DNA from: an uncultured Pelagibacteraceae bacterium
Lineage (GTDB): Bacteria > Pseudomonadota > Alphaproteobacteria > Pelagibacterales > Pelagibacteraceae
Direction of reading: 5' to 3'
NCBI GenBank assembly: GCA_902565385.1
Contig: CACFEW010000005.1
Location: 1-42,253, forward strand
Length of the DNA: 42,253 nucleotides
The translations under genes were made by a program, and so were the position numbers. This document shows positions 13,258-29,443 of the stretch, piece after piece (position 1 is the first letter of the stretch; each line of letters opens with the position of its first letter). Below the pieces are notes generated by a model. The model made no database searches. It was given only the letters and a program-made list of their open reading frames with translations, and was not told where the DNA came from.

Positions 13258-13716
13258 ATGCTTTTAAGAAGAAAGTTTTTAAAATTGTTAGGTCTCTCTA
13301 TACTTTTTGTGTCATTACCTTATCAATTCTTAAAATCAGCAACAAAAAAACTTATTAATCCTGATCTTAGTAAAGCTCAAAAAGATATAATGTTTAATGA
13401 AAGCACTGAGAGACCATTTACCAGTGAATTACTAAAAGAAAAAAGAGATGGATTTTATCATTGTGCAAATTGTGGAGCAAAGTTATTTTCATCAAAAGCA
13501 AAATTTGATAGTGGAACGGGTTGGCCTTCCTTTTCTGAGGCTTTGCCAGGAGCTTTTAAAACTAAGATTGATTATTCTTTTGGAATGAAAAGAATTGAAT
13601 ATCATTGTGCAAATTGTGGTGTACATCATGGCCACGTTTTCTTAGACGGACCTACTGCTACTGGAAAAAGATTTTGTAATAATGGATTGTGTTTAATTTT
13701 TGTACCAGAGAATTAA
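13258..13716 (+). CDS. msrB: Peptide-methionine (R)-S-oxide reductase with Tat signal
   Basis: A 152-residue MsrB that repairs methionine-R-sulfoxide in proteins. The catalytic cysteine is Cys140 in KRFCNNG. Two CxxC pairs (CANCGAK and CANCGVHHGH) bind zinc, and SGTGWPSF is the substrate region, with Thr where some MsrBs have the recycling Cys. The N-terminus is a twin-arginine signal (RRKFLKLLG at residues 4-12 followed by a hydrophobic stretch), so the enzyme should be exported folded to the periplasm. Reduction there would need a periplasmic thiol donor, for which the CcdA-like protein at 3394 is a candidate by inference. The stop overlaps the convergent dehydrogenase by 4 bases. Confidence 0.88.
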   Translation: MLLRRKFLKLLGLSILFVSLPYQFLKSATKKLINPDLSKAQKDIMFNESTERPFTSELLKEKRDGFYHCANCGAKLFSSKAKFDSGTGWPSFSEALPGAFKTKIDYSFGMKRIEYHCANCGVHHGHVFLDGPTATGKRFCNNGLCLIFVPEN

Positions 13717-14999
13717 TTAGAAAAACCATATTTTCTAAGTCTTACATCTCCTGTTCTCGCATGAGCTTCCATTCCCTCATATCTAGAAATTCTAGCTGCA
13801 GCAGCACCAACTAATTTAGTAGATTCTTTTGTCATTCTTTGAAAGCTTAAAGTTTTAATAAATTTTCCAACAAATAATCCGCCAGTGTATCTTCCTGCAC
13901 CTTTAGTTGGTAAGATATGATTTGTACCAGAACATTTATCGCCATATGCAACAGTTGTTTCTTCACCCACAAACAACGAACCATAATTTGTTAATCTTTC
14001 ATGAAACCATTCTAAGTTTTCGGTCTGTACTTCTAAATGTTCAGGTGCATATTCGTCACTAATTTTCACTATTTCTTCATCAGTGTCACAAAGAATTACT
14101 TCACCATAATCTCTCCACGCTGCTTCAGCACTTGTTCTTGGAACTTCTGGAAGTTCTGCAATTAATTCTGGAACTCTTTTCATTACTTTTTCGGCTAATT
14201 CTTTACTAGTTGTATAAAGCCAACATGGTGAGTTATATCCATGCTCAGCTTGTCCTACTAAATCTACCGCAACAATTTCTGGATCAGCTTTAGCATCAGC
14301 TATAATTCCAATTTCAGTTGGTCCTGCAAACAAATCAATACCAACTTTTCCATACAAAATTCTTTTAGCCTCAGCCACAAATTGATTTCCTGGACCTACA
14401 ATTATATCTGCTGGGGGATTTTTGAATAATCCATTGGTCATTGCTGCAATTGCAGGAACTCCTCCTAAATTTAAAATAACATCTGCACCGCAAAGATCAG
14501 CTGTGTATACAATAGTAGGGTGGGCACCAACACCTTCTTTAGGAGGACTACATGCAATAATATTTTTTACTCCAGCAACTTTTGCTGTAGTTACACTCAT
14601 TACAGCAGATGCAATATGAGCGTATCTTCCACCCGGGATGTAGCAACCTGCTGTATTAACAGGCACTAATTTTTGACCTGCATACAAACCATCAGAAAGT
14701 TCTACTTCAAAATCTTGTCCATAATTTTTAAGTTGTGCTTCAGCAAATTTTCTAACTCTTTCAAATGAAAATTGAATATCATCTTTGGTTTTTTGATCTA
14801 AAGTTTTTTTAATTTCCTCAATTTTATCTTTTGATACTATGATGTCTCCATCATACCTATCGAATTTTTTAGTTAAATCGATGCAGCCTTGTTCTTTTGT
14901 TGTTTCGATATTTTTTAATAAATCTTGAACTATTCCAGTTGTCTTATTATCGTCAGTGGATGAAGTTTTTGGAGACTTTTTTAAATAAGTAATGGCCAT
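13713..14999 (-). CDS. Histidinol-dehydrogenase-family enzyme, HpsN-like (sulfopropanediol 3-dehydrogenase)
   Basis: A 428-residue zinc- and NAD-dependent dehydrogenase of the HisD family. General family marks are PGGRYAHIASAVMSV, VGPGNQFVAEAKR, AGPTEIGIIAD and AEHGYNSP. Several segments differ from true HisD and match, from memory, the HpsN branch that oxidises 2,3-dihydroxypropane-1-sulfonate (DHPS) to sulfolactate: an ITYLKK start, GSLFVGEETTVAYGDKCSGTNH, and PTKGAGRYTGG in place of the HisD PTYGY...SSLG region. No histidine-pathway genes flank it. The taurine module elsewhere in the window makes an organosulfonate role plausible. The alternative is a genuine HisD. It starts at ATG 14999. 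Confidence 0.72.
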   Translation of the reverse strand: MAITYLKKSPKTSSTDDNKTTGIVQDLLKNIETTKEQGCIDLTKKFDRYDGDIIVSKDKIEEIKKTLDQKTKDDIQFSFERVRKFAEAQLKNYGQDFEVELSDGLYAGQKLVPVNTAGCYIPGGRYAHIASAVMSVTTAKVAGVKNIIACSPPKEGVGAHPTIVYTADLCGADVILNLGGVPAIAAMTNGLFKNPPADIIVGPGNQFVAEAKRILYGKVGIDLFAGPTEIGIIADAKADPEIVAVDLVGQAEHGYNSPCWLYTTSKELAEKVMKRVPELIAELPEVPRTSAEAAWRDYGEVILCDTDEEIVKISDEYAPEHLEVQTENLEWFHERLTNYGSLFVGEETTVAYGDKCSGTNHILPTKGAGRYTGGLFVGKFIKTLSFQRMTKESTKLVGAAAARISRYEGMEAHARTGDVRLRKYGFSN

Positions 15000-15061
15000 T
15001 AATACATTTTTATAATTGATAAATTATTTAAGACAAATTTAATTTTATTGCAATCAAACAT

Positions 15062-15973
15062 TTAATCTAGGGCAACAACAGCTGCAGCTATTGATGCTAG
15101 TCTAGCAGGTGCTTCATCGGAGCGGCTAGTAATTACCACAGGTACTTTACCACCTACAACTACTCCTGCAGCACATGCACCACTAAAATATATTAACATT
15201 TTTACCAATGCATTACCTGTCTCAACACTCGGCACTAATAAAACATCAGCAATTCCCGCAACATCATTTTTAATGCCTTTAATAGTTGCAGATTTTCTTG
15301 ATATGCTGTTATCAAAAGCCAAAGGCCCAAATACATCAGCATTTAAATTTTCTTTTTTTGCAAGATTTGTAATTTCTTCAGCCTCTTTAGAACTTGGAAC
15401 ACTTTCCAAAACTTCTTCGGTTGCAGACAATACTGCAATTTTTGGTCTTTCGATTCCAATTCTATGAGAAAAATTAATTACATTTTTTAAGATATGCATT
15501 TTAGTTTTTACATTAGGTAATACATTTAAAGCACCATCAGTAATTATTAAGGGTTTGTCATCCTTTTCTAACGTCATATGCCAGATATGACTTAACCTCG
15601 TTTTGCCCAACAAGTTGTACTCTCTTTTTAAAACTTCTTTCATTAAAATATCTGTATGAATATGTCCTTTGACTATAATTTTTATTTTTCCTTCACTCGC
15701 GAGTTTTGCAGCAATAGCTGCAGTATTATTTTCAACTGGTTCATTAATAATTTCAAATTTAGAAATATCCCATTTTAAATCCAATGCACATTTTAAAATT
15801 TCTTTTTGATTACCAATAAAAATTGGATTTATAAGATTTTCCTTTACAGCATCTAACACAGACATCATTGGAAGCGGTTTTCCCGCATTAACAATACCTG
15901 CATTCATAACTTTTTGGTTGTGCGCTTTGTTTAATAAATTTTCAGGACAGATTATTTGTTTATTAGATAACAT
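15062..15973 (-). CDS. Phosphate acetyl/butyryltransferase
   Basis: A 303-residue member of the Pta/Ptb family that interconverts acyl-CoA and acyl phosphate. Recognisable parts are the GIVNAGKPLPMMSVLDAV opening, LIITDGALNVLPN, FGPLAFDNSIS, ADVLLVPSVETGNALVKML and the C-terminal PVVITSRSDEAPARL. The length is that of the short Pta/Ptb form without MaoC or DRTGG domains. ATG at 15973 is preferred, with a TTG at 15988 giving five extra residues. It follows the HpsN-like gene's start at 14999 by 62 bases on the same strand. In sulfonate degraders a Pta of this kind conserves acetyl phosphate released by Xsc, which fits the tau module, but Xsc itself is not in this window. Confidence 0.8.
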   Translation of the reverse strand: MLSNKQIICPENLLNKAHNQKVMNAGIVNAGKPLPMMSVLDAVKENLINPIFIGNQKEILKCALDLKWDISKFEIINEPVENNTAAIAAKLASEGKIKIIVKGHIHTDILMKEVLKREYNLLGKTRLSHIWHMTLEKDDKPLIITDGALNVLPNVKTKMHILKNVINFSHRIGIERPKIAVLSATEEVLESVPSSKEAEEITNLAKKENLNADVFGPLAFDNSISRKSATIKGIKNDVAGIADVLLVPSVETGNALVKMLIYFSGACAAGVVVGGKVPVVITSRSDEAPARLASIAAAVVALD

Positions 15974-16023
15974 CTTCAAAATATACAACTATATTGTTAA
16001 TTTTAAATATCAATCGAAAAATC

Positions 16024-16743
16024 TTATTTTTTCTTCAAAAGAACTTTTTCCAAGAAACAGTAAAGCATAGTAAAAATATACATAGAGCCAATTTCTTTAA
16101 TCTGAAATTTTGATTTTCCAAATTTTCTTCCAATCCAATTTATAGATATGATTTTATATTTATATTTTCTGGTAATAATCTTTAATGGAAGTTCTAAAAA
16201 AATATTAAAATTTTCAGATACGATTGGAAACAATTTCAAGATCGTTTTTTTTTTGTACATTTTAAAAGCATTAGTAAAATCGTTGTAATTCGAGAGAAAT
16301 AAAACTCTTATAAAATTGTTTGCGACTCTATTAATTATTAGTTTTAAAAATGGGTAATTAGTTACATTAGAATTTTTTGAAAATCGAGTGCCAAACACAG
16401 CGTCTAATTCTGGATTATTTTTTATACATTTATAGTATCTAATTATATCATTAACATCGTCCGATAAATCACACATAAACAAACATACATTTTCTTTTTT
16501 TGATTTTATTATTCCAAGCTCAACAGCTTGCCCTAAGCCCTTTTTTTTATTTTTAAAAACCCTTATCCTATTGTGATTTTTTTCGAATTTCTTTAATTTT
16601 TGATAAGTGTTATCTTCGCTAAAATCGTCGATAAATATAATCTCATAATTATTAATCTTTCTTTTTAAAGTATTTAATTTTTTAACAGTATGATCAATTT
16701 GATTAGTCTCATTATATGCAGGAATAATTATTGATAAACTCAT
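16024..16743 (-). CDS. GT2 glycosyltransferase, dolichol-phosphate mannosyltransferase-like
   Basis: A 239-residue family 2 (GT-A) transferase. It has the nucleotide-binding IIPAYNET at the N-terminus, FIDDFSEDNT, the NKKKGLGQAVELGI segment typical of polyprenyl-phosphate sugar synthases, and a metal-binding D-L-S-D-D region (about residue 93) where most DPM1-like enzymes have DADLQ. It lacks the C-terminal membrane helices of GtrB-type proteins, although its last 25 residues are hydrophobic. It would make a polyprenyl-phosphate-linked sugar on the cytoplasmic face. The divergent membrane protein at 16766, only 22 bases away, could be the GT-C enzyme using that donor. Confidence 0.78.
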   Translation of the reverse strand: MSLSIIIPAYNETNQIDHTVKKLNTLKRKINNYEIIFIDDFSEDNTYQKLKKFEKNHNRIRVFKNKKKGLGQAVELGIIKSKKENVCLFMCDLSDDVNDIIRYYKCIKNNPELDAVFGTRFSKNSNVTNYPFLKLIINRVANNFIRVLFLSNYNDFTNAFKMYKKKTILKLFPIVSENFNIFLELPLKIITRKYKYKIISINWIGRKFGKSKFQIKEIGSMYIFTMLYCFLEKVLLKKK

Positions 16744-16765
16744 TTGAAACTTTAAAACAGTATTT

Positions 16766-18550
16766 ATGAAAATTCAAAAAGAAAAAATATTATTCATCAT
16801 ATTTTTTTTGATATCAATTTTTATAGGATATTTTATTTGGGAATTAATAGAACTAGAATTTAAAGATATAGGAATTATTGGAGAGTATTCAAAAAAAAAT
16901 CACCATGCTTTAAATGATATTTTGAGATATTTTGTCTTTTTATTATTACCTTCATTAATATTTATTTCTTATAAGTATCATAAAAACCCAAATTTTTTAT
17001 CAGATATAAAAAAATTTTTCTTCTCACATGAAGAAAACATTTTTGAGGGAAGCTTCAAATTAAATCTATTTGCTATTTTTTTTATATTTGTACTTTTAGC
17101 AAGTTTTTTATCTGTCAATCTTTCATCATCTTTAATTGACAGTTATCACGAAGGACAACGAATGAGTTCAGCATATAAAAATTTACTTGATGGCTCTTTA
17201 TGGTCTGGCTCTTATGTAACAGTCGGTATATTTTATGAAACATTGTCCTCATCAATATTTTGGAAATTTTTCGATCACGTTAGTATCGGTATAGCAAGAT
17301 ATACTGATATTATTTATACTTTCATTTTTAAATTACTTTCAATATTTTTCATTTATTTTTTAGCAAAATTAACCAATTTTGACCAAAATAGAAAAATTAT
17401 TTTTTTTTTAATAAACTCTTTATTGTTTGTTTCATTATCTAGTTACGATGACATTGGATCAATATCTTATAGAGAAATCCCAATAATTTTATTGTCAATT
17501 TTATTTATTTTCTTAATTTCAAAGAAAAATTCATTTTTAGCAATTTTTTTTATTTCAGCTTTGACATTAATATCAATGTTTTGGGGTGTTGATCGAGGTT
17601 TGATTTATAATATTCTAACAATAATAATCCTCGTTTATTTATTTTTTTTAAAACGTTATTTAGACTTTTTTTTACTATTATCATTCATTATAATTATTTG
17701 GACATCTTTTTTCTTAATCTCAAAAAATGAATTTCAACATTTTATTCAAAATACTTATTTAATTTATAAAGAGATGGCTTATGTTCACGGATTAGTTCAT
17801 CCATTACCATTTAGTGATGAACCTAACTCTACTAGAGCTACAAAAACAATTTTATTGATTTTAATTTGTATATTGATCTCAATTAGCACGATCTTTAAAA
17901 TAAAATATCCTATAAATTTTAAAAAAGTTATATTTTTTCTTACTTTAGTTTCAATTGGTAGTTATCTATACGCACTTGGAAGATCTGACGGCCCTCATAT
18001 CAAAAACTCTTTTGGTTTTCCGATAATAACAGTGTCAATTTTTTTAACATACTTCATTTTAAAAAAAATAAAGATCATTTCAAATTTAAATTTTAATATC
18101 ACAAGTTTAATTTTAGTAGTATATTTAATATTCTCTTCAGAAATAAAAATACCAAATATTTTTTCAATAAAAGAGAGATTAAGCTATTATTTTTACGTTG
18201 AAGATAAAGAATATTTGAGTCAGAGCGAAAAAGAATTGATAAATTTTTTAAAACCAAAACTTCAATCTTTTGAGTGCATTCAATTATTTAGTAATGATGC
18301 AGCTTTATATTATCTTCTTAGAAAAAAAAGCTGTACTAAATTTTATTTTGTTTGGAGTGCATCATCTATATTTAATCAAAAAAAATTTATAAATGAGTTA
18401 AGAAACGTAAATTTTATTATTACTGGTGGTACAAAAAATGATTGGGATTATTCTTTAGAAGAAAAACTATATTTAGTAGACGAATATATTAAGATGAATT
18501 TTAAAAAAAAGGAAAGTTATCAAAGTTGGAATATTTTAATCAAAGGTTAA
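16766..18550 (+). CDS. Polytopic membrane protein, GT-C glycosyltransferase-like
   Basis: A 594-residue inner-membrane protein with roughly a dozen hydrophobic helices and a soluble C-terminal tail of about 100 residues (from about residue 490). An acidic motif after an early helix (IDSYHEGQRMSSAYKNLLDG, about residues 127-145) is where GT-C enzymes carry the catalytic acid loop. The family cannot be named from the sequence alone. Its position next to a DPM-like GT2 gene and within a glycan island supports a lipid-linked-sugar transferase. Its last 15 bases overlap the convergent Ldh_2 gene. Confidence 0.6.
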   Translation: MKIQKEKILFIIFFLISIFIGYFIWELIELEFKDIGIIGEYSKKNHHALNDILRYFVFLLLPSLIFISYKYHKNPNFLSDIKKFFFSHEENIFEGSFKLNLFAIFFIFVLLASFLSVNLSSSLIDSYHEGQRMSSAYKNLLDGSLWSGSYVTVGIFYETLSSSIFWKFFDHVSIGIARYTDIIYTFIFKLLSIFFIYFLAKLTNFDQNRKIIFFLINSLLFVSLSSYDDIGSISYREIPIILLSILFIFLISKKNSFLAIFFISALTLISMFWGVDRGLIYNILTIIILVYLFFLKRYLDFFLLLSFIIIIWTSFFLISKNEFQHFIQNTYLIYKEMAYVHGLVHPLPFSDEPNSTRATKTILLILICILISISTIFKIKYPINFKKVIFFLTLVSIGSYLYALGRSDGPHIKNSFGFPIITVSIFLTYFILKKIKIISNLNFNITSLILVVYLIFSSEIKIPNIFSIKERLSYYFYVEDKEYLSQSEKELINFLKPKLQSFECIQLFSNDAALYYLLRKKSCTKFYFVWSASSIFNQKKFINELRNVNFIITGGTKNDWDYSLEEKLYLVDEYIKMNFKKKESYQSWNILIKG

Positions 18551-19549
18551 TTCCTTAATACTTTTAAGAATATTTTTTGGTATTTTAATTTTCTTTTTTG
18601 AGTTTATTTTGAATCTCTTAAATTTATTTTCTCCTGGGTATAAGATTTCTTTAATATTTTTAATTTTAGGCAATTTTTTAATTAATTTAACATTTTTTTT
18701 TATTCTATCATTGTAATCTTTTACAAATAAGTTTGGTTTGAAAACAAAAAATAAATGTCCAACATTCTGCGGTCCAGTAAAATCATCAAAGGGATCTTTT
18801 ACCTTGCCTCCATGATTTGCTCCAGTAAGCACCCCGCTTAATATATCGACCATCCATGCCAAACCTGATCCTCTAAAATCTCCTATTGGTAACTGAACAC
18901 CTTTTAATGCTTTTTTTGCATCTGTTGTTGGTTTACCAAACTTATCCAATGCCACTCCTTTTGGTAATTTTTTATTATTGATTTCTGCAAATCTGATTTT
19001 TCCCCTATTAATTTTTGAGATTGAAGTATCTAAAATGAAAGGTGCCTTATAATTTGTGGGCGTTCCAAAACAAATAGGATTTGTTCCAAATAGACTTTTA
19101 ATAGCTCCAAACGGAGCTACAGCTGGAGGTGCATTAGTAAAGATCATTACGACTAAATTTTTTTTGACGGCCTTTTCAGCATAGTACCCAGATAACCCAT
19201 AATGATTACTATTTTTAGTAGCTACAAGACCAATTCCAGTTTTTTTTGCATTTTTAATTGCTGTTTTGATAGAAATATCTGCAGCAACAAATCCAATACT
19301 ATTATCAGCATCCACGTGAGAAATCGAAGATGAAATTTTTTTTATTTTAATATTAGGTTTTGGGTTTATTAATCTCTTTTTTATTCTTTCACAATACATC
19401 TTCAGTCTTGATAACCCATGACCGTGGGCTCCTACAAGCTCAGCATTAATTAGGGCTTCAGCTGATATTTTTGCATGTTGTGAATTTAATTTGTGTTTCT
19501 TAAAAATATTATAAACCAAATTATAAATTTTATTATTTTTGGTTTTCAA
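18536..19549 (-). CDS. Malate/L-lactate dehydrogenase (Ldh_2) family oxidoreductase
   Basis: A 337-residue NAD(P)-dependent oxidoreductase of the Ldh_2 family, a fold unrelated to classical Rossmann lactate dehydrogenases. The catalytic-region motif VGAHGHGLSRLKMY (about residues 34-47), SNHYGLSGYYAE and the C-terminal GSGLAWMVDILSGVLTG are present. Members reduce 2-oxo acids, diketogulonate or cyclic imines, or oxidise ureidoglycolate. The start is TTG at 19549, inside the end of the upstream epimerase gene (17-base overlap), and fits the family's N-terminus. It ends an operon with two SDR epimerases, a GT2 and a radical SAM gene, which suggests a sugar- or sugar-acid-modifying role here rather than central metabolism. 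Confidence 0.82.
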   Translation of the reverse strand: MKTKNNKIYNLVYNIFKKHKLNSQHAKISAEALINAELVGAHGHGLSRLKMYCERIKKRLINPKPNIKIKKISSSISHVDADNSIGFVAADISIKTAIKNAKKTGIGLVATKNSNHYGLSGYYAEKAVKKNLVVMIFTNAPPAVAPFGAIKSLFGTNPICFGTPTNYKAPFILDTSISKINRGKIRFAEINNKKLPKGVALDKFGKPTTDAKKALKGVQLPIGDFRGSGLAWMVDILSGVLTGANHGGKVKDPFDDFTGPQNVGHLFFVFKPNLFVKDYNDRIKKNVKLIKKLPKIKNIKEILYPGENKFKRFKINSKKKIKIPKNILKSIKELTFD

Positions 19550-20582
19550 TTAGTTCCTCAATGATTTTTTTTGTGTCATATCTTTGTTTCCATTTAGGAT
19601 AATGTTTTTTGAATTTAGTTGTATCTGATATGTACCAAATATGATCACCTACTCTTGGTGTCTTTAATATTTTTCTCTTGATTATAATTTTAGATATTTT
19701 TTCAACATGATCTAAAGCTTCAATTATCGAACAATTAGAGTACCTTCCACCTCCCATATTATACACCTCGCCGTTTTTAGGTTTTTTGTAAAATTCCCAA
19801 AAACTATTTACTAGATCATAACTATGTAAATTATCTCGAACTTGTTTACCTTTATAACCAATTAAATTATATTTTTTTTGTTGTAAGCTTGCTTTAACTA
19901 AATAAGATAAAAATCCGTGAAGAGTTGCACCACTGTGATTTGGGCCAGTTATACATCCTCCTCTAAAGCATACCGTCTTTAAGCCGACATTTTTTCCATA
20001 TTCCTGAACAATTAAATCAGCATAAGTTTTAGAAACTCCAAAAAAACTATGTGTTGCATTATCAATTGAGAAATTTTCTTTAATACCTTTATAATTTTTA
20101 TCACTTTTTTTTAATTCCCATCTAGTATTTTTCTCATAAATTTTAAGTTTATTAGGATTGTCTCCATAAACTTTATTAGTCGACATAAATATAAAAGGTG
20201 CATTTGGTGAATATTTTTTGGTTAATTCTAAAAGATTAAGTGTGCCCGAGGCATTTACATTAAAATCTAAAAAAGGAAATTTCTTTCCATAATCATGAGA
20301 TGGTTGGGCTGCACAGTGAATTATTACTGATATCCTTTTTGAATACTTTTTGAATATTCTATTTAAACCATCCATATTTCGAATATCCAAATTATAATTT
20401 TTAAAATTCTTATTTCTCTTTAATAGTTGCATCTTTAGCCAAGAAGTAGAGCCGTCTTTTCCAAAAAAAAATTTTCTTAAATTATTGTCTATTCCTATTA
20501 CCTCAAAGCCTTTATCATGAAAAAAATTCACAGCTTCTGATCCAACTAACCCGGTTGATCCTGTTACAACTGCTATTGACAT
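19533..20582 (-). CDS. Extended SDR sugar epimerase/dehydratase, CDP-paratose 2-epimerase-like
   Basis: A 349-residue nucleotide-sugar SDR. The NAD-binding TGSTGLVG is at residues 7-14, and the expected DIRN, CAAQPSHDY and STNKVYGD segments follow. FRGGCITGPNHSGA and GYKGKQVRDNLHSYDLV are typical of the CDP-paratose/tyvelose epimerase branch. The usual catalytic Tyr-x-x-x-Lys is Phe-Gly-Val-Ser-Lys, so the tyrosine is a phenylalanine. I believe this replacement recurs in a subfamily with HSxFGxSK, so this is not necessarily inactivation. The start overlaps the upstream epimerase stop by one base. The exact sugar is unknown. Confidence 0.82.
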   Translation of the reverse strand: MSIAVVTGSTGLVGSEAVNFFHDKGFEVIGIDNNLRKFFFGKDGSTSWLKMQLLKRNKNFKNYNLDIRNMDGLNRIFKKYSKRISVIIHCAAQPSHDYGKKFPFLDFNVNASGTLNLLELTKKYSPNAPFIFMSTNKVYGDNPNKLKIYEKNTRWELKKSDKNYKGIKENFSIDNATHSFFGVSKTYADLIVQEYGKNVGLKTVCFRGGCITGPNHSGATLHGFLSYLVKASLQQKKYNLIGYKGKQVRDNLHSYDLVNSFWEFYKKPKNGEVYNMGGGRYSNCSIIEALDHVEKISKIIIKRKILKTPRVGDHIWYISDTTKFKKHYPKWKQRYDTKKIIEELIENQK

Positions 20583-21604
20583 TAAAAGTATTTATTTATT
20601 TTAGATTTATTATTTTTTAACCATAAAAAAGTATCCATCACAACTTTAAATATATTTCTTTTTGGCTTCCAACCATATGTTTTTGTAACTAAATAATTGC
20701 TAGTTATAAAATAGGGGATATCATAAATAGATGTTTTAGAAATTTTATTGAATTTAATTTTATTACTAGTTATTTTTTCACATATTTTTGTCAGTTGTAT
20801 TAAAGAAGTATTACTTTTTTTTGAGCCACCTACTGTAAATATTGTGTTATTTATCTTATTAAATTTTTTAATTTGCAATAATATTAATTCACATAAGTCA
20901 TATATATGCAATACATCTCTAATTTGATTACCTAATCCACCATAGCCAATATATTTCATTTTTTTATTTTTATAATGACTCCATATCCACAAACTTACAA
21001 AACCTTGATCTTGCTTTCCAAATTGTAAAGGCCCAGAAATAACTCCACATCGATTTATTATATATTTCGTACCAAATGCATATGAAAATTCTTCAACTAG
21101 CATTTCTGATGATAATTTGCTCATACCATATATCGTTTTTGGGCCCTGAATATTATCTTTTTCTCCAAAAGTTTTACTGATTTTTAATTTCGATTTGATA
21201 ATTTTTTTTTTTACAATATTGTTCATTTCTTTTATTGGGTAAACTCTGCTACTTGAAAGAAAAATAATTCTTGATTTATCTTTTTTTACTTTCTTTAAAA
21301 TATTTAATGTTCCTATTAAATTTGTATTTATAACTTTATCGATATCTTTTTTTGAAACTTCAACAGCTGCTTCTGCACAACAATCAATAATTAAATCATA
21401 TTTGGGTAATTTTTTTATTTTATTAAAATTATAAACATCAAAATTAAAATTTTTGATTTTTTTTACTTTTAATAAACTCAAATTATATTTAGAACCTTTT
21501 CTAGAAAGATTATCTAAAGTATCTACTTTAAAACCTTTGGAATTAAGAAATAAAGCTAAATTAGTTCCCACAAAACCACAACCGCCTGTAATCAAAATTT
21601 TCAT
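20582..21604 (-). CDS. Extended SDR nucleotide-sugar epimerase/dehydratase
   Basis: A 340-residue SDR with a perfect N-terminal ITGGCGFVGTNLA NAD-binding motif followed by DNLSRKGS, the same opening as CDP-tyvelose epimerase. SSSRVYP and the catalytic Y-G-M-S-K are present, with GKQDQGFVSLWIW and NQIRDVLHIYDL in the substrate half. It is a paralogue in fold and branch of the next gene, but keeps the catalytic tyrosine. The two genes overlap by one base and probably act in sequence or on related nucleotide sugars. The start overlaps the GT2 gene's stop by 4 bases (ATGA). Confidence 0.82.
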   Translation of the reverse strand: MKILITGGCGFVGTNLALFLNSKGFKVDTLDNLSRKGSKYNLSLLKVKKIKNFNFDVYNFNKIKKLPKYDLIIDCCAEAAVEVSKKDIDKVINTNLIGTLNILKKVKKDKSRIIFLSSSRVYPIKEMNNIVKKKIIKSKLKISKTFGEKDNIQGPKTIYGMSKLSSEMLVEEFSYAFGTKYIINRCGVISGPLQFGKQDQGFVSLWIWSHYKNKKMKYIGYGGLGNQIRDVLHIYDLCELILLQIKKFNKINNTIFTVGGSKKSNTSLIQLTKICEKITSNKIKFNKISKTSIYDIPYFITSNYLVTKTYGWKPKRNIFKVVMDTFLWLKNNKSKINKYF

Positions 21605-22452
21605 TTTCGTGATTTTTTATAGTAAATATGTTCTAATACAATAAATTTTATTAAAATTGCAAAATTTATAGATATAAAATTAAACTCAAATTTAATTAAA
21701 TTTTGAAAAGATCTTTGAAAAAAAAATTTTGTTTGCTTGAGAGATAACTTAAAAGTTCTGTAAAAAGAGGGCCTTTTTGTTTTATAACCAAATGAATGAT
21801 AACGCCAAACTCTATTGCTTAAAGTATTTATATCATCATCTTGCAAGTGTTTTGCTAATGCATCAGAGCAATATCTCATTTTTAAGTGCTGATAACCTTT
21901 AATCTTATTAGAGTAATCAATATCCTCTCCATTTGTATTTAGACTTTCATCATAACCTTTGACAGTGTCCCATACAGATTTATGTTGAATGGTGTTACAA
22001 CCATATAAAAAAGGTGGATTTTCAAAAGATTTATCACCCCAATTTTGACTATAATATTTTGCTCTCCATGCATTGAATTTATTTTGAATTAATTCTTCGA
22101 TCATCTTTCCCCCACAAATAATATTTTCAGACTGCTCAAAATTTTGAATCATTACCTCTAACCAATTTTTTTCTAAAACTACATCAGCATCTATTGATGC
22201 TACTATTTTATTTGAACTATTTTTGACTCCAAGATTTCTATTATACCCTAGTCCTTTGTTCTCTTCGTTATTGATTATATTTACATCTTTAAATTCTTTA
22301 ACAATATCTAATGTAAAGTCATTTGAATTATCATTAATAACTATGATCTCGTCAAACTGATAAGATTGATTTTGAATTGAAGTTAATGAGTTTCTAATAG
22401 TCTTTTCAGCATTAAAGGCTGGTATATAAATACTTACACTTGTTTTATTCAC
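21601..22452 (-). CDS. GT2 family glycosyltransferase
   Basis: A 283-residue GT-A transferase with SVSIYIPAFNAEKTIRNSL at the N-terminus, INDNSNDFTLDI, and a metal-binding SIDADVVLEKNWLEVM segment (Asp-x-Asp at about residue 92). A later NGEDIDYSNKIK carries the likely catalytic base region (ED). The C-terminal 40 residues are hydrophobic and amphipathic and may sit on the membrane. It starts with GTG at 22452, 7 bases after the radical SAM gene, and overlaps the next SDR by 4 bases. Donor and acceptor are unknown. Confidence 0.82.
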   Translation of the reverse strand: MNKTSVSIYIPAFNAEKTIRNSLTSIQNQSYQFDEIIVINDNSNDFTLDIVKEFKDVNIINNEENKGLGYNRNLGVKNSSNKIVASIDADVVLEKNWLEVMIQNFEQSENIICGGKMIEELIQNKFNAWRAKYYSQNWGDKSFENPPFLYGCNTIQHKSVWDTVKGYDESLNTNGEDIDYSNKIKGYQHLKMRYCSDALAKHLQDDDINTLSNRVWRYHSFGYKTKRPSFYRTFKLSLKQTKFFFQRSFQNLIKFEFNFISINFAILIKFIVLEHIYYKKSRK

Positions 22453-22459
22453 AAATTTC

Positions 22460-23809
22460 TTAATTATCTTGCAAACTTTTTACTAAACTTTGCCACTTTT
22501 TCCCTCCATCTTTCTGTCTATCATATTCAGTATTGATGTTTGCGCCTGGATAATTTTTTAAATCTTTGTTATTTAATGTGTGAAGAGGAGTTCCTTCTAT
22601 TTCAGCTGTTCCAGACTCTTGAACAGTATTAAAATTAGTTTTTTTTATAAACTCTTTAGTTTCGAGCATTTGAGCTTTTGTTTCACCCGGTAAGCCGTAG
22701 GTAAATGTTCCATGAACTGACATATCTAAGCTTCTTAAATGATCAACTAATTTGTTAGTATAATTTAGATCAAGATGTTTGTTAACAATCTTATCAACTA
22801 CATATTGGCTTCCTGACTCAATTCCTATTTTTACACCTTTACATCCGTTGTCTCTCATTATTTTCCAATTTTCTTTTTTACAAGTATCTGCTCTACACAT
22901 TGCAAACCACGGGATATTATATTTACCTGCAATTTTACTTATTTGAACTGTATGTTTGTTTCCAATATTAAAAGTATCATCATCGAAATATATCGCTTCA
23001 AATTTATAATCTTTTGTTAGTTTATCTAAAAAGCCTTCCATATATTCAGCAGTGTATTGTCTTACAGATCTTTTATTTTCACCATCTGGATCATTTCCTG
23101 TCATTGTTGCAGGCCATACACAGAAAATACATTTAAATGGACAACCTCTGCTAGTTAGAATGTGGGCTTGAGGTGATAATTGGTTCATTGGAATTGGATT
23201 TCCATCAAAATATTTATCATAAATATTCTCGTCATAATAAGGAAATGGAGAGTTATTCATTTCTTCTAAAGTTAAAAGATCATGTTCTATTAAACCATTT
23301 TTTCCATTAATTACCTTCATTACATTTTTTTCAAATTCACCTTTTAAAATTGCATGAATAATATCGCTATCCCATTTTTGAGAGGAAGTAGAAATGGGCC
23401 CTGCAACAATTATTTTTAAATGAGGATATTTCTTTTTAATTTGCTTAATTAGTTTGTAATCGTGATCCCAAGATGGTGTTGCACTTTCAATTAAAAAGTA
23501 TTCAATTTTTTTTTCAATTGAATCTAAATATTTATAAAAACTCTCATAAGATTCTGATAAAGCAATACTGTCTCTAAAAAAAACTTCTTTATCTCCCATC
23601 ATTTTAGAAGCATAGGTAGTTGCGTAGCCCAAAAAATAAGGGTAAGGGATGTAGTCTTTTGCTCTTGGATTATCTGGTGTGCATCTTCCAAGGTACGTAA
23701 ATGGCCACCTAGACCCTGATCTTACACCTCTTCGCCACCTTTTTTTTCTTAAAAAACCTCTACTCTCTTTATCTTCCCACCACGGAGGATTACTAAACAA
23801 AATTGACAT
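22460..23809 (-). CDS. Radical SAM protein with B12-binding-like N-terminal domain
   Basis: A 449-residue radical SAM enzyme. The [4Fe-4S] cysteines are Cys223, Cys227 and Cys230 in SRGCPFKCIFCVWP. The following YFDDDTFNIG, MCRADTC and GVKIGIESGS segments are typical of the class B type. Residues 1-200 form a B12-binding-like domain (IIVAGPISTS, ILKGEFE), but no DxHxxG cobalamin-ligand motif is visible, so cobalamin may bind base-off without a protein ligand or not at all. It heads a minus-strand operon with a GT2, two SDR sugar enzymes and an Ldh_2 enzyme. A role in radical modification (methylation, rearrangement or dehydration) of a surface sugar is inferred from context. Confidence 0.82.
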   Translation of the reverse strand: MSILFSNPPWWEDKESRGFLRKKRWRRGVRSGSRWPFTYLGRCTPDNPRAKDYIPYPYFLGYATTYASKMMGDKEVFFRDSIALSESYESFYKYLDSIEKKIEYFLIESATPSWDHDYKLIKQIKKKYPHLKIIVAGPISTSSQKWDSDIIHAILKGEFEKNVMKVINGKNGLIEHDLLTLEEMNNSPFPYYDENIYDKYFDGNPIPMNQLSPQAHILTSRGCPFKCIFCVWPATMTGNDPDGENKRSVRQYTAEYMEGFLDKLTKDYKFEAIYFDDDTFNIGNKHTVQISKIAGKYNIPWFAMCRADTCKKENWKIMRDNGCKGVKIGIESGSQYVVDKIVNKHLDLNYTNKLVDHLRSLDMSVHGTFTYGLPGETKAQMLETKEFIKKTNFNTVQESGTAEIEGTPLHTLNNKDLKNYPGANINTEYDRQKDGGKKWQSLVKSLQDN

Positions 23810-23872: not shown

Positions 23873-24757
23873 ATGAGAGTATTTGACACCACTACATTTT
23901 TTGAGGAAAAATTAATGATGGACCTAAGGTTCAATATTCTTGATCCTTTTGTAGATAAATTCATAGTTTGTGAGGCCACATTTTCACATAGCGGCAAAAA
24001 AAAAGAAATAAAATTTGATAAAAAAGATTTTCCAAAATTTGAAGATAAAATCGTTCATATAATTATAAAAGAAGATCCAGTTGAAAAAACACACAATCAA
24101 AATAATAACCCAAACTTATTAAGAAAAAATAGTATCAAAAGAATAGAGACACAAAGAAATTATATTAACAAGGCATTAGGGAATGCAGATAAAGATGATT
24201 ACGTAATTTATAGTGACAATGATGAGATACCAGATTTATCTAAAATAGATTTTAAATCTAATAAAGCTAAAGTTATGATATTTAAACAAAAATTATTTTA
24301 TTATAAGTTTAATCTTGCTTATCCAAAAATAGATTGGTTTGGTTCAAAGTCTTGCAAGATAAAAGATTTAAAAAACATTTCATGGTTAAGAAACATAAAA
24401 AATAGGAAATATAATTTTTTTAGATTAGATACTTTATTTTCTGAGATGAAATATATGGATTTAAAAATTATTGAAAATGGAGGTTGGCATTTTACTAATT
24501 TAAAAACTCCAGAGGAATTATTAAGAAAATACTTAAATGATGAAATGCATTCTGAATTTGAATTAAAAAACGATGATTTAAAGGATATTGAATATAAAAT
24601 TAAAAATAAATTTATAAACTACGATCACTTATCAGACACAAAGTCTTCAAATGAAAAAAAACAAAATAATAGATTTGATTTAACAAAAGTAAATTTAGAT
24701 ATTTTACCTGATTATATTCTAAATAATTTAGAAAAATATAAATCTTGGATAGATTAA
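23873..24757 (+). CDS. GT17 (MGAT3-like) family glycosyltransferase
   Basis: A 294-residue protein matching the GT17 pattern known from eukaryotic beta-1,4-mannosyl-glycoprotein N-acetylglucosaminyltransferase and its bacterial relatives. It has an N-terminal DTTTFFEEKLMMDLRFNILD, VDKFIVCEATFSHSGKKK, a central acidic motif YSDNDEIPDLS (candidate metal-binding D-x-D at about residues 115-117) and GGWHFTNLKTPEELLRKY. It is cytosolic with no membrane helix. It starts at ATG 23873, divergent from the radical SAM gene. In this island it probably adds a sugar to a lipopolysaccharide or other surface glycan. Confidence 0.8.
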   Translation: MRVFDTTTFFEEKLMMDLRFNILDPFVDKFIVCEATFSHSGKKKEIKFDKKDFPKFEDKIVHIIIKEDPVEKTHNQNNNPNLLRKNSIKRIETQRNYINKALGNADKDDYVIYSDNDEIPDLSKIDFKSNKAKVMIFKQKLFYYKFNLAYPKIDWFGSKSCKIKDLKNISWLRNIKNRKYNFFRLDTLFSEMKYMDLKIIENGGWHFTNLKTPEELLRKYLNDEMHSEFELKNDDLKDIEYKIKNKFINYDHLSDTKSSNEKKQNNRFDLTKVNLDILPDYILNNLEKYKSWID

Positions 24758-24805: not shown

Positions 24806-25693
24806 ATGTCAAAAAAAAATACCATTTTAGTGACTGGCGGGGCAGGCTTTGTTGGTTCAAATTTGATAGGTTATTTATTAAAAAAAACTAGTTATCATAT
24901 TATTAGTATAGATAATTATTCATCAGGTTTTAAAAAGAATCATCTTAAAAATAAACGGATTAAATACATCAAAGCGAATACTAAGGATATTGTAAAGATA
25001 ATTAGTAATCCAAAAAAAATTAAAGTAGTTTTTCATTTTGGAGAATTTGCAAGAATTTATCAAAGCTTCATTAATATGAATGAATGTATAGACTCCAATA
25101 CAGTTGGAACAAATTCAGTATTTAATTTTTGTTTGAAAAATAGTATTAAACTTATCTACTCTGCAACATCAGCCTCATTAGGAAATAAAGGAAATGATAA
25201 AAATCTTTCTCCATATGCTTTTACAAAAGCAAAAAATTTAGAATTATTAGAAAACTTAAAAAAATGGTTTAATTTTAAGTTTGAAGTGATCTACTTTTAT
25301 AATGTTTATGGTCCAAAACAAATATCTAAAGGAAAAATGTCCACAGTGATTGGCATATTCGAAGAGGCTTATAAAAATAAAAAACCTTTACCAGTTGTTA
25401 AACCAGGGTCACAATCTAGAAGATTTACTCATATAGATGATACTATTGAAGTGTGTTATTTTGCCTGGAAAAAAAATTTATCACGACATTATAGTATTTC
25501 TAGTAAAGAAATTTATTCAATTATAGATGTTGCCAAAATGTTTAAATCTAAGATAAAATTTTTAAATAAGAGACCAGGTGAAAGATATGCATCTGCATTA
25601 ACAAAAATGAATTTATCAAATAAAGTTTATCGCTACTATGGTAAAATTAAACTCTCAAAATATATTAGTGATTTTTTAAAAAAAAATAGTTAG
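24806..25693 (+). CDS. UDP-glucose 4-epimerase-like extended SDR
   Basis: A 295-residue nucleotide-sugar epimerase-type SDR with VTGGAGFVGSNLIGYLL (NAD-binding), IDNYSSG, FHFGEFARIYQS in place of the usual HxAA segment, SATSASLG, and the catalytic P-Y-A-F-T-K. SRRFTHIDDTIE and the GERYAS tail follow the family layout. It is somewhat shorter than GalE (about 330-340). It is probably a 4-epimerase or decarboxylase-type enzyme making a sugar for the adjacent GT17. It overlaps the tauC stop by 4 bases on the opposite strand. Confidence 0.8.
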   Translation: MSKKNTILVTGGAGFVGSNLIGYLLKKTSYHIISIDNYSSGFKKNHLKNKRIKYIKANTKDIVKIISNPKKIKVVFHFGEFARIYQSFINMNECIDSNTVGTNSVFNFCLKNSIKLIYSATSASLGNKGNDKNLSPYAFTKAKNLELLENLKKWFNFKFEVIYFYNVYGPKQISKGKMSTVIGIFEEAYKNKKPLPVVKPGSQSRRFTHIDDTIEVCYFAWKKNLSRHYSISSKEIYSIIDVAKMFKSKIKFLNKRPGERYASALTKMNLSNKVYRYYGKIKLSKYISDFLKKNS

Positions 25694-27615
25694 CCTTTAC
25701 CTCTCCAAGGTATTGTTTTATCGATTATTTTTCTTAGAGTAATATCAAATAACAATCCAAGCATTCCCATGATAAAGATTGTTATCCAAATTACCTCATA
25801 TTGAAAATATTTTTTGGCTACATTTTCGACAAAACCAATACCAGTAGTACCAGCTAAAAATTCTGCAGCTACCAGGGTTCCCCAACACATACCCACTGCA
25901 ACTCTAATACCAGTAAGTATCTCTGGTAATGAGTTAGGAAAAATAACATGTCTTAATATTTGTCTTTTTGATGCTCCTAATGAGTGAGCTGCATGGATTT
26001 TTGATAATTGTGTACCTGACGCGCCCGCTCTTGCAGAAATAATCATTATAGATAAAGAAACCATAAATAATAAGAACACTTTTCCAGTATTATCAATTCC
26101 TAAGACTGAAATTATAAGTGGAGCCCATGCAAGAGGAGGAACAGGTCTATAAAGTTCAATTAAAGGATCAAAAAAACCTTTTGCAAATCTATTCAATCCC
26201 ATAAATAGACCAAGTGGTACACCAATTAATATTCCAAAAACCAAACCAAGAAACACTCTTAAAAAAGAATCCCAAATATGACCATAAGGAACAGGCACTT
26301 TAAATAAATTAAAATCTCCTGTAACAATTTTTAGAACACCACCTTTGAAGTTTTGTTTAACTATTCCATCTTTACTATGAACAGGATATTCACCTGGCAA
26401 AATATCTGCAATCCAGTCTGGCAAAATAAAGCCAATCATTTTGCTTACATCAACCATTTGTATCCACAATAGAGGAATATCTTTATAACCCACACTGGGT
26501 TTTGACATTAATATAAATTTATTGAAAGTATCGGATGGTTTAGGTAACCATCTACCTGAACCTTGTTCTGAACAACTTGGACCACTAGCAACGATAGTTC
26601 CTGCAGGAAATAAGAAAATATCAATTAATCTCAATCCACCTTGTTCTTTTTTTTGAGCATTGTCAAATTTAACAATTGCTGCCTGCATTTGATCTAATGC
26701 ATTTGGAGGGTAGATACTTGCAAATTCAATTCTTCTTGCAATTTTCACAATATTTTTTGCATATGTTGAAGCCACTTCCTCACTATCACTTAAATTTTTT
26801 CTATAAGATTTAATTTCCTCTTTAAGTTCTTTAATCTTATTTTTAAATTGAGGGTTGTGATTTCTTAATTTAAAAAACTCATCACTGATTAAATTTAATT
26901 CTTGGGCAGCAGTATGAAACTTTAAACCTCTATAAGTTGCAGGCACTAAAGGCACTTCTAATGTATTTTCAATAGAACCTGAGCCTGCATCTACTTTAGT
27001 TATACCCCAACCACCTTCTTCCTCTACTGCTTTTAGTCTTTCATTTAGCTCTTGCTCTGTTTCAAATGGATAATCAGATTTTTGGAAATTTTCAGTTAAT
27101 AGATTAATTTTTCCAGTGATATCTTCTATTTTTTGTTGTGTCTCAATCTCTAATAAATCTTCATTTGTAAGTAATGGGATAAGTTGATTAGTTTTACTTA
27201 TATAGCTAACTAGTATCGTTTTTTGTTGGCTATTTAGTTCTTCAGAATTTTGAATCTCATTTTGAATTAATTTTAAATTTTTATTCTCTTTTTTGATTTG
27301 TGAAGTACTCTTGAACTCTCTTTCCTCAATTGGAAATTGATATTTTAAACCAAGCAAAGAGTCATTAACTTTTGCAACTTGGCATAGCTCGTTGGCAGAT
27401 TTTGGGTAAAATCCTTTAGCAATATCCCAAGAATAATAGAGCCAAATTAAAAGTAAAAAACTACTTCCAACAATTACCCAGTGAGTACCCCCTAATGCTC
27501 TCTCTGGATTTCCAAAAACTGCATCTACTTTTTCAGTTTTTATTAATCTTCTTCCATAAAGAATACAGCCGATTACAGCAAAAAATATTAAAAAAGTTAA
27601 TATTTGAGTTAACAT
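25690..27615 (-). CDS. tauC: Taurine/sulfonate ABC transporter permease with long N-terminal extension
   Basis: A 641-residue protein. The C-terminal part (about 440-641) is a normal BPD-type permease: HIWDSFLRVFLGLVFG, PVPPLAWAPL and the EAA loop AAHSLGASKRQILRHV at about 542-557. TauC/SsuC proteins are about 260-280 residues. Here there are about 440 extra residues: two membrane helices (about 5-21 and 47-64) and then a large polar region, with long charged helices likely to form coiled coil (about 95-310), presumably periplasmic. The reading frame is continuous. The start ATG directly follows the tauB stop, so the genes are coupled. Taurine as substrate is inferred from tauA/tauB similarity and the aminotransferase and alanine dehydrogenase next door. 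The extension has no assigned role. Confidence 0.82.
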   Translation of the reverse strand: MLTQILTFLIFFAVIGCILYGRRLIKTEKVDAVFGNPERALGGTHWVIVGSSFLLLIWLYYSWDIAKGFYPKSANELCQVAKVNDSLLGLKYQFPIEEREFKSTSQIKKENKNLKLIQNEIQNSEELNSQQKTILVSYISKTNQLIPLLTNEDLLEIETQQKIEDITGKINLLTENFQKSDYPFETEQELNERLKAVEEEGGWGITKVDAGSGSIENTLEVPLVPATYRGLKFHTAAQELNLISDEFFKLRNHNPQFKNKIKELKEEIKSYRKNLSDSEEVASTYAKNIVKIARRIEFASIYPPNALDQMQAAIVKFDNAQKKEQGGLRLIDIFLFPAGTIVASGPSCSEQGSGRWLPKPSDTFNKFILMSKPSVGYKDIPLLWIQMVDVSKMIGFILPDWIADILPGEYPVHSKDGIVKQNFKGGVLKIVTGDFNLFKVPVPYGHIWDSFLRVFLGLVFGILIGVPLGLFMGLNRFAKGFFDPLIELYRPVPPLAWAPLIISVLGIDNTGKVFLLFMVSLSIMIISARAGASGTQLSKIHAAHSLGASKRQILRHVIFPNSLPEILTGIRVAVGMCWGTLVAAEFLAGTTGIGFVENVAKKYFQYEVIWITIFIMGMLGLLFDITLRKIIDKTIPWRGKG

Positions 27616-28413
27616 TTAATTATCTTTCCCCATAATTTCCTCTTCCATGTTCCAGATCATTTCAAGAATTTCCTCTCGTTTTTGAGAAAATTCTTTGTTT
27701 TTTTTAATTTCTCTTAAATCTTCTTTTAATCCCATTGAAGCAAATGGCAGATTATATTCTTTATGTATCCTTCCTGGTCTTGGAGCCATTACATATAATC
27801 TTTCCCCAAGAAGCAAGGCCTCTTCAACTGAATGTGTAATCAGAATAATTGTTTTGCCAGTTTCTTTCCAAATTTTTAAAACTAGGGACTGCATTTTTTC
27901 TCTTGTAAGAGCATCAAGAGCTCCCAATGGTTCATCCATTAAAATCAAATCTGGATTATTGATTAGACATCTTGCAAGAGCAACTCTTTGCTGCATTCCT
28001 CCAGATAGTTGATAAGTTGGAGTGTTTCCAAAGCCTTTTAATCCAACAATCTCTAACCATTCATCAACTTTTTTTTGAGTTTCAACCGGATCTTCTTTTT
28101 TCATTCTTAATCCAAAGTTGACATTTTCAGCAACTGTTAGCCATTCAAACAACGCACCTTGCTGAAAAACCATTCCTCTTTCAACGCCTGGTCCATCTAT
28201 TTCTTTATTATTTAGAGTAATACTTCCTGAAGTTGGTCTGATAAATCCTGCAGTAATGTTTAGCAATGTGGTCTTTCCACAACCAGACGGCCCAAGAACT
28301 GTAAGAAGTTCTCCTTTTTTGAGAGTAAAATTTAAATCTTTTAATGCGTGAACAGTTTCTCCTTTAGGAGTTTTAAAAATCATATTTAGATTTTGTGAAA
28401 CTAAATCACTCAT
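27616..28413 (-). CDS. tauB: Taurine/sulfonate ABC transporter ATPase
   Basis: A 265-residue ABC ATPase of the TauB/SsuB/NrtD group. The Walker A is GPSGCGKTT (about residues 38-46), the Q-loop FQQGALFEW, the signature LSGGMQQRVALARCL, the Walker B LILMDEPLGALDALT and the H-loop THSVEEAL. ATP hydrolysis drives import by the adjacent permease. It lies between tauA and tauC, 88 bases after tauA with a hairpin in between that may lower its expression relative to the binding protein. Confidence 0.88.
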   Translation of the reverse strand: MSDLVSQNLNMIFKTPKGETVHALKDLNFTLKKGELLTVLGPSGCGKTTLLNITAGFIRPTSGSITLNNKEIDGPGVERGMVFQQGALFEWLTVAENVNFGLRMKKEDPVETQKKVDEWLEIVGLKGFGNTPTYQLSGGMQQRVALARCLINNPDLILMDEPLGALDALTREKMQSLVLKIWKETGKTIILITHSVEEALLLGERLYVMAPRPGRIHKEYNLPFASMGLKEDLREIKKNKEFSQKREEILEMIWNMEEEIMGKDN

Positions 28414-28446
28414 AAAGAGACTTTATATTTGAATTTTTAATAAAAA

Positions 28447-28480
28447 AATAGGCACCAATTTATTACAATTGGCGCCTATT
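28447..28480 (-). terminator. Hairpin after tauA (terminator/attenuator)
   Basis: A 14-base inverted repeat (28447-28460 and 28467-28480) with a 6-base loop lies 22 bases after the tauA stop. One pair is mismatched on the plus strand but forms G-U on the minus-strand transcript. On that strand the hairpin is followed by a run of seven T. Its position between tauA and tauB suggests partial termination, giving more binding protein than membrane components, as is usual in ABC import operons. Confidence 0.7.
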
Positions 28481-28501
28481 AAAATTTAAATTACCCTTAG
28501 A

Positions 28502-29443
28502 TTATAAAGGTAAGAAACTAGTATCTACATTTCCTCTTGGTGTTCCCATTCCTTTTAAGAATGCATCAAGATTTCCACTTTCCATAGATTGTTTAGTTTC
28601 TTCAGGTGTTAGAAATTTAAAGCCACTTAAAGTTTCTTTCATATCAGCAACTTTCATTTCAGAAGCTTTTGACATTGAGTTCATATCGCTTTTACCAGCT
28701 CTATATCTCGCATTAGCTTCATGAGTTACTTCAATAAAAGTTCTTAGCATACCTGGATTTTCCTTCATAAACTTAGTAGTTACTGAAGTGATATCGATCC
28801 CTAAGATACCTGCGTCTCTAGCTTCTTGAACTGTAAGCAATCTAGATCCAACCGCAGTTGCAGCTTTAATTGAGTTACCACCAAATAAACATGCCATTAC
28901 AACATCACCACTTACTAAAGCAGCAGCACCTTCTTCAGGGTCCATTTGAATGATGTCCATTTTTTTTCTATCCGCACCAACAACTTTCATACTTTCATCA
29001 AAAACGTATTCAGCCATTGTACCTAGTGGAACAGCAACTTTTTTCCCTTCAAGTTCTGTAGCGTTAGCTTTTGTTATACCTGAAGCATTAGATGTTACAC
29101 ATGTTGTACCACCCATTCCGTATTCCATAGCAATATCTACAAGTTTGATAGGAGCTTTTGATTTAACAGCGTTAATGAATGGAACTAACCCTTGAGAGTA
29201 AGAGATATCAATATCTCCAGCTAACATAGCATCAGTCATTGCACCACCATTAGTAAAGTTTGTCCACTTAACAGGAACCCCAAGAGCTTTAGCGAAGTTT
29301 TTCTTCATCATATCCTCTAGATTTGGGCTTGGCCACTCTAAGAAGTATGCAACTCTAACTTCATTAGCTGCTGAATTAGCAACTGAAATTGAAAGATTAA
29401 GAGCTACAAAACATCCAAGAATAAAACTAATTATTTTTTTCAT
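28502..29443 (-). CDS. tauA: Taurine-type ABC transporter substrate-binding protein
   Basis: A 313-residue periplasmic binding protein of the TauA/SsuA/NMT1 type. It has a Sec signal peptide (KKIISFILGCFVALNLSISVANSA), then EVRVAYFLEWPS, GDIDISYSQGLVPFINA, LEGKKVAVPLGTMAEYVFDE and a C-terminal helical lobe. ATG at 29443 is chosen over an in-frame TTG at 29476, because a strong GGAAGAGG ribosome-binding site sits right before it and the signal peptide then starts properly. It captures taurine or a related sulfonate for tauBC. The promoter region is shared with the divergent aminotransferase. Confidence 0.85.
   Translation of the reverse strand: MKKIISFILGCFVALNLSISVANSAANEVRVAYFLEWPSPNLEDMMKKNFAKALGVPVKWTNFTNGGAMTDAMLAGDIDISYSQGLVPFINAVKSKAPIKLVDIAMEYGMGGTTCVTSNASGITKANATELEGKKVAVPLGTMAEYVFDESMKVVGADRKKMDIIQMDPEEGAAALVSGDVVMACLFGGNSIKAATAVGSRLLTVQEARDAGILGIDITSVTTKFMKENPGMLRTFIEVTHEANARYRAGKSDMNSMSKASEMKVADMKETLSGFKFLTPEETKQSMESGNLDAFLKGMGTPRGNVDTSFLPL

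Follow-up and report, generated by a model that had tools for sequence, protein, structure and literature searches.

What does a radical S-adenosylmethionine (SAM) enzyme do at the head of a row of sugar genes in a SAR11 bacterium, and does the gene at the end of the row belong with it? The row lies on the minus strand of contig CACFEW010000005.1 (assembly GCA_902565385.1, an uncultured Pelagibacteraceae bacterium); the window is the whole stretch of 42,253 nt that was analysed, and the coordinates of cassette genes are those of its forward strand. The row runs from the radical SAM gene (RSAM, 22460-23809, 449 amino acids) through a family 2 glycosyltransferase gene (GT2a, 21601-22452, 283 amino acids) and two short-chain dehydrogenase/reductase genes (SDR1, 20582-21604, 340 amino acids; SDR2, 19533-20582, 349 amino acids) to a gene of the Ldh_2 malate/L-lactate/sulfolactate dehydrogenase family (18536-19549, 337 amino acids). 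A first-pass annotation had taken these five closely packed genes as one route to an unusual sugar. The packing was confirmed, with spacings of +7, -4, -1 and -17 bases, and the family names held: all five proteins exceeded their Pfam cut-offs, namely Radical_SAM (PF04055, 56.2 bits against 29.5), Glycos_transf_2, Epimerase for both SDRs, and Ldh_2 (PF02615, 356.2 bits against 38.8). The whole is best explained, on balance, as an acquired glycan cassette, RSAM-GT2a-SDR1-SDR2, whose core may work like the enzyme pair AprD4/AprD3.

A radical SAM enzyme and two SDRs that recur with it

A scan with one genome per species gave 21 SAR11 loci, all titled Pelagibacteraceae. Eighteen of them (L039-L056) were cassette loci, in which RSAM was 76-98% identical to that of the window. 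RSAM and GT2a stood together in all 18, and a homologue (40-92% identity) of a GT17-type glycosyltransferase, found by Pfam at 23873-24757 on the plus strand of the window, flanked RSAM in every one. SDR1 and SDR2 were both present in 14 loci, Ldh_2 in 16, and all five genes in 13; some of the remaining five were cut by contig ends. Among the 13 five-gene loci, a gene with an FkbM methyltransferase domain (in the copies tested) lay between SDR2 and Ldh_2 in three, and in two a second family 2 glycosyltransferase gene (GT2b) and a gene for a 594-residue membrane protein (MEM594) lay between GT2a and SDR1. A DegT aminotransferase and a dTDP-sugar isomerase occurred among some of the neighbours, pointing to a flexible glycan island. 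The other three loci (L057-L059, in three SAR11 genomes) held RSAM of 64-68% identity by itself among housekeeping genes, flanked by genes that by eye are homologues of rho and mnmE. In the RSAM tree, which omitted the truncated L090 as well as L092-L095 and L128, 19 cassette RSAMs formed one clade (support 99/93), sister to the rho-mnmE clade.

The family was then traced outside SAR11 with a 13-sequence profile (E <= 1e-60). It was found in 11 of 398 genomes drawn from the phylum and in 7 of 385 drawn from the class, the own genome being counted in both; together the two draws gave 14 other bacterial genomes with 15 RSAM places. Genes around these places were mapped by homology; mechanically called open reading frames are often spurious in GC-rich genomes (the L124 slice was in the wrong frame). 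SDR1 and/or SDR2 lay near RSAM in nine of the 15 stretches and both did in six; several stretches stopped at contig ends, and in L126 and L127 the SDRs were 5-8 kb from RSAM. On Azospirillum plasmids SDR1, SDR2 and RSAM stood in a row with glycosyltransferases adjoining. GT2a had a single distant match (30% identity, L126) among the 15 stretches, and in L117 and L118 RSAM was fused in one long frame to a GT4-type glycosyltransferase domain that exceeded its Pfam cut-off. The tie between the radical SAM enzyme, two epimerase-type SDRs and glycosyltransferases, as first proposed from the window, thus reappears in distant bacteria, and RSAM, SDR1 and SDR2 form a unit that recurs and is probably the working core of the cassette.

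The closest solved relatives of both SDRs were two CDP-tyvelose 2-epimerases, 1orr and 9rl0 (SDR1 against 1orr, E 2.7e-33), placing both in the CDP-paratose/tyvelose branch to which they had been assigned at first pass. SDR1 has an intact active site, Tyr159 and Lys163 of the YxxxK motif being invariant in 12 of 12 aligned sequences. SDR2 retains the STNKVYGD segment of tyvelose epimerases, and the position of the catalytic Tyr is occupied by Phe (HSFFGVSK). This Phe was present in all 24 orthologues listed, in 12 of 12 sequences of a separate alignment and in 16 of the 17 SDR2 loci of the 398-genome draw, L145 (42% identity) being unclassifiable at that position; it was also present where no RSAM was found. 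Its retention over such distances suggests a functional change rather than decay. The known CDP-paratose/tyvelose 2-epimerase RfbE is the nearest solved model of the SDRs, but the cassette differs from it in holding two divergent genes of this type next to each other, of which SDR2 lacks the catalytic Tyr. A CDP-sugar route is possible: CDP-glucose pyrophosphorylase (TIGR02623) exceeded its cut-off in none of the nine SAR11 cassette genomes (three had weaker matches), in five of seven other RSAM genomes and in one of 14 control genomes.

Co-occurrence of RSAM and SDR2 was counted over all 398 phylum genomes; G587, where RSAM lies in two overlapping frames, was kept. SDR2 was present in 17 genomes, including 10 of the 11 with RSAM (Fisher p = 9e-15, uncorrected for relatedness, a value that overstates independence because 8 of the 11 RSAM genomes came from one family). 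This skew is one of several points that weigh against reading the cassette as a single working unit. SDR2 was on the RSAM contig in only five of the ten shared genomes and on another contig in G369, G373, G381, G413 and G477. Seven genomes had SDR2 without RSAM, so the SDR pair is also found on its own and RSAM may, in some lineages, have been added to it; in three of these seven (G001, G302 and G465) SDR1, SDR2 and a GT2b homologue stood together, and GT2b homologues adjoined SDR2/SDR1 in L136, L138 and L143. Within SAR11, RSAM-GT2a was kept with no SDR1 or SDR2 nearby in L051 and L048, and the RSAMs of the rho-mnmE group were without cassette SDRs and glycosyltransferases. On 33 of the 36 phage contigs, SDR1 was missing from the 4 kb to either side of RSAM. 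As a separate observation, the L048 contig (10 kb) is palindromic, an inverted repeat about its centre, and is probably a chimera of whole-genome amplification.

Predicted fold and reaction of the radical SAM enzyme

RSAM was aligned across 24 members: the window protein and 23 of the 57 SAR11 and viral loci, near-copies, partial and intein-bearing sequences being left out. The cluster-binding cysteines C223, C227 and C230 (CX3CX2C) and an N-terminal signature, GxRxGSRWPxT, were invariant in all 24. The structure prediction called for by the first-pass annotation gave a confident AlphaFold2 model (pLDDT 89.7, pTM 0.90), whose top match was AprD4 with paromamine bound (PDB 6fd2; Foldseek E 1.5e-17, TM 0.69). 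The two aligned with VIA Z 30.5 and a root-mean-square deviation of 2.9 over 386 residues at 19% identity, the best of 1000 chains aligned. The same entry was also the best solved match by sequence profile, with the radical SAM core aligned. AprD4 is a radical SAM 1,2-diol dehydratase of apramycin biosynthesis that acts on a sugar, with the NADPH reductase AprD3 as its partner; it is not known to use cobalamin. Only a small number of radical SAM enzymes are known to have sugars as substrates.

The cassette resembles AprD4/AprD3 in the fold, in the likely pairing of a radical SAM enzyme with an NAD(P) reductase and probably in a sugar substrate. It differs in that its SDRs are of the CDP-tyvelose-epimerase type, and in context, AprD4 lying in an aminoglycoside cluster whereas RSAM occurs in surface-glycan or phage surroundings and has a signature of its own. 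Working like AprD4/AprD3 is the best-supported analogy for the cassette. By this analogy RSAM would, with no need of cobalamin, form a 5'-deoxyadenosyl radical from SAM and with it remove a hydrogen atom from a sugar carbon, which would drive loss of the neighbouring hydroxyl group, as in the diol dehydration of AprD4, or a related rearrangement. SDR1 would set or reduce the resulting keto group, as AprD3 does for AprD4. SDR2 may be a sugar- and NAD-binding partner of SDR1, or may carry out a half-reaction, and GT2a would put the product into a surface glycan. That product is most likely a deoxygenated or rearranged sugar. The GT17-type glycosyltransferase and the neighbouring SDR3, both on the opposite strand, would belong to the acquired cassette as well.

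A match between a predicted model and AprD4 does not by itself prove a reaction, and the family scores also tell against this reading. The AprD4 model NF033070 gave RSAM 65.6 bits against a cut-off of 500. The best NCBIfam match of RSAM was HpnJ (TIGR03471), at 154 bits where the cut-off is 577.6. Membership of either family was rejected, both scores falling far short of the equivalog cut-offs.

The HpnJ match is the starting point of the foremost rival, which we regard as improbable. Here RSAM would contract or rearrange the ring of a lipid- or glycan-bound sugar, GT2a would act like HpnI, and the SDRs would supply a nucleoside-diphosphate sugar. HpnJ converts bacteriohopanetetrol (BHT)-glucosamine into the BHT cyclitol ether. 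According to the accessible part of PMC12583986, its substrate is a glycoside, and it acts once the glycosyltransferase HpnI and the deacetylase HpnK have done their steps. The hpnI gene, annotated as a glycosyltransferase, adjoins hpnJ. RSAM shares with HpnJ a C-x-F-C-x-WP sequence after the cluster motif and a glycosyltransferase neighbour, both in the pairing with GT2a in all 18 SAR11 cassette loci and in the fusion to a GT4 domain elsewhere. Because the substrates of AprD4 and HpnJ are sugars already linked, a glycoside is at least as likely a substrate of RSAM as a nucleotide sugar. However, besides the low score, the one HpnJ tested was separated from the RSAM family by a very long branch, the closest solved fold was AprD4 with no HpnJ structure among the matches listed, and nothing in the hpnI-K-J steps given in the accessible part of PMC12583986 corresponds to SDR1 and SDR2. 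On either view the nearest characterised relatives of RSAM act on sugars; the first-pass annotation would have been in doubt had they acted on unrelated substrates.

About as unlikely as an HpnJ-like reaction is an undescribed sugar route of three enzymes, in which a cobalamin-free RSAM would activate the sugar for the Tyr-less SDR2, SDR2 would perform an unprecedented half-reaction (e.g., on a trapped ketyl or enol) and SDR1 would finish it. Phages would then use RSAM, some of them with SDR1, on virions or on the host surface, the gene lying between terminase and portal or by glycosyltransferase-like genes.

Less likely again is methylation, in which RSAM would depend on cobalamin and, as a C- or P-methyltransferase, add a methyl branch to the sugar. 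Several of its NCBIfam matches were cobalamin-dependent (B12) radical SAM methylases, and two methylases of this class, MgmA (Z 25.7) and CysS, were the second and third fold matches. B12-binding matches under the cut-off were found in several RSAM homologues, including that of the close SAR11 relative G154 (20.2 bits against 32.1), and these count against a cobalamin-free enzyme. The window RSAM itself gave no B12-binding match (PF02310) in the Pfam scan. No MetH exceeded the cut-off in the nine SAR11 RSAM genomes, seven of which had matches confined to the first quarter of the MetH model, and PF02310 exceeded its cut-off in only three of the nine. The best fold match, moreover, remained the cobalamin-free AprD4. 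The DxHxxG pattern was absent from 21 of the 24 aligned RSAMs and, in the remaining three, fell inside the radical SAM domain; since many B12-dependent radical SAM enzymes also lack it, its absence is weak evidence and not decisive. Use of cobalamin by RSAM appears unlikely on the whole. Of the first-pass suggestion that the enzyme rearranges or methylates an intermediate, methylation is not favoured.

The probable insertion site and the Ldh_2 gene

A search of 297 genomes from the order found Ldh_2 in 198 (E <= 1e-60) but an RSAM orthologue of at least 76% identity in only nine, the own genome counted; in one of the nine (G165) the match covered residues 1-387 only, with an in-frame stop. Twelve cassette-free genomes, mostly well assembled, were hand-picked from the 198, and 20 kb around Ldh_2 was taken from each. 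None of the 12 stretches had an RSAM match. A tauC-like permease gene preceded Ldh_2 on the same strand in all 12; the distance was within 20 bases or an overlap in seven, 188 and 240 bases in two, and 1022, 1022 and 2045 bases in three. A PTA_PTB phosphate acyltransferase gene (pta) lay beyond Ldh_2, also on the same strand, at 60 bases or less in seven genomes and at 1181-6547 bases in five. In the window the tauC-like ABC permease (25690-27615, minus strand), which borders the insert upstream of Ldh_2, was 6141 bases from it. The space held SDR3, GT17, RSAM, GT2a, SDR1 and SDR2; SDR3 (24806-25693, plus strand) is an extended SDR by Pfam and stands beside GT17 in part of the loci mapped. On the other side, 2548 bases holding MEM594 (16766-18550, plus strand) and GT2b (16024-16743, minus strand; family by Pfam) separated Ldh_2 from pta (15062-15988, minus strand).

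A cassette at another place gave a further comparison. In L049, GT17-RSAM-GT2a-SDR1-SDR2 stood at a different site, beyond a homologue of the window gene at 36971-37948, and the next gene was a GFO_IDH_MocA oxidoreductase instead of Ldh_2. No Ldh_2 match was found in the 15 non-SAR11 stretches around RSAM. Ldh_2 is thus a resident gene of a tauABC-Ldh_2-pta locus and outside the cassette, so that its place at the end of the row is a juxtaposition. The most likely history is that the cassette was horizontally acquired and inserted between tauC and the resident Ldh_2. Two points temper this account. The direction of insertion is inferred from patchiness and a cassette-free majority, and co-transcription of Ldh_2 with the cassette is possible, since Ldh_2 lies on the same strand and downstream in the operon loci.

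It is accordingly very improbable that Ldh_2 and the other four enzymes make up a single dedicated sugar pathway. The tight overlaps and the 13 of 18 SAR11 cassette loci with all five genes favour it, and to that extent the expected conservation of the five families was found, but Ldh_2 was not seen beside RSAM in the 15 stretches outside SAR11. Ldh_2 as the pathway's reductase was rejected on its spread through most genomes of the order without RSAM, its tauC neighbourhood and L049. Least credible of all is a chance pile-up of unrelated sugar genes in meaningless order: the locus is clearly variable, with SDR3, the FkbM gene, GT2b and MEM594 coming and going, but RSAM and SDR1/SDR2 recur amid differing neighbours in Azospirillum and in a number of further bacterial families, and SDR2 accompanies RSAM in nearly all its genomes even where the two are on separate contigs.

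The cassette-free tauC-Ldh_2 site, the GT17 gene by RSAM, and GT2b with the membrane protein beyond Ldh_2 were additions to the first-pass annotation. The Ldh_2 protein scored below every NCBIfam equivalog cut-off. In the cassette-bearing locus L039, Ldh_2 was split into two adjacent open reading frames, a possible frameshift. GT2b showed weak NCBIfam similarity, under the cut-off, to polyprenyl-phosphate transferases. MEM594 adjoined GT2b in the window, L052, L053 and L056; it had no match in Pfam and NCBIfam scans, and its AlphaFold2 model, built from four sequences, was unusable (mean pLDDT 43.9). A sigma-70 promoter scan returned 63 sites against 71 expected. Around the cassette runs a row of tauABC-like, Ldh_2, PTA_PTB and histidinol-dehydrogenase genes (13713-19549 and 25690-29476), the transporter models matching under their cut-offs; this row may be an operon for sulfonate or hydroxy-acid utilisation.

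Phage members and the place of the family

Members of the RSAM family were found on 36 viral contigs at 41-54% identity, many of them near-copies. Within 4 kb of the phage RSAM, short proteins weakly like DUF7796 were encoded on 30 of the 36 contigs, a Methyltransf_24-like gene on 26, terminase on 16, portal homologues on 14 and SDR1 on three. Three RSAMs tested had no match in PHROGs, and the radical SAM proteins that a fold search among viral models returned were distant ones, their query TM reaching 0.58 at most. Two phage RSAMs (L092:8001-9743 and L094:1356-3095) carried a 140-residue insert inside CX3CX2C, directly before the second cysteine. With Pfam Intein_splicing scores of 30.6 and 30.9 bits, under the cut-off of 35.8, the insert looks like an intein that breaks the iron-sulphur cluster site.

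For a pair of pelagimyophages, the accessible part of PMC7029224 mentions radical SAM cassettes in a host-recognition island. The cassette locus resembles such host-recognition clusters and the flexible islands of SAR11 in being variable and rich in glycosyltransferases. This cassette, the tauC/Ldh_2 site and the SDR pair are not described in the accessible part of that paper. In the literature collection that was searched, no paper combined radical SAM, tyvelose and epimerase, and none combined tyvelose and Pelagibacter. RSAM apparently represents a distinct and undescribed family, patchy in Pseudomonadota and also carried by phages, since no NCBIfam model exceeded its cut-off and neither a PHROG nor a match in that collection was found.

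The family is coherent and widely scattered, through SAR11, Azospirillum, other Pseudomonadota and phages. Its frequent company of an SDR pair, one member of which is Tyr-less, makes the chemistry testable with three small proteins. For SAR11, the locus offers a concrete surface-glycan cassette set in a row of metabolic genes, with sites both with and without it visible. Phage copies of the gene are often found in the virion module, beside methyltransferase-like and other short genes, which hints at glycan modification during infection.

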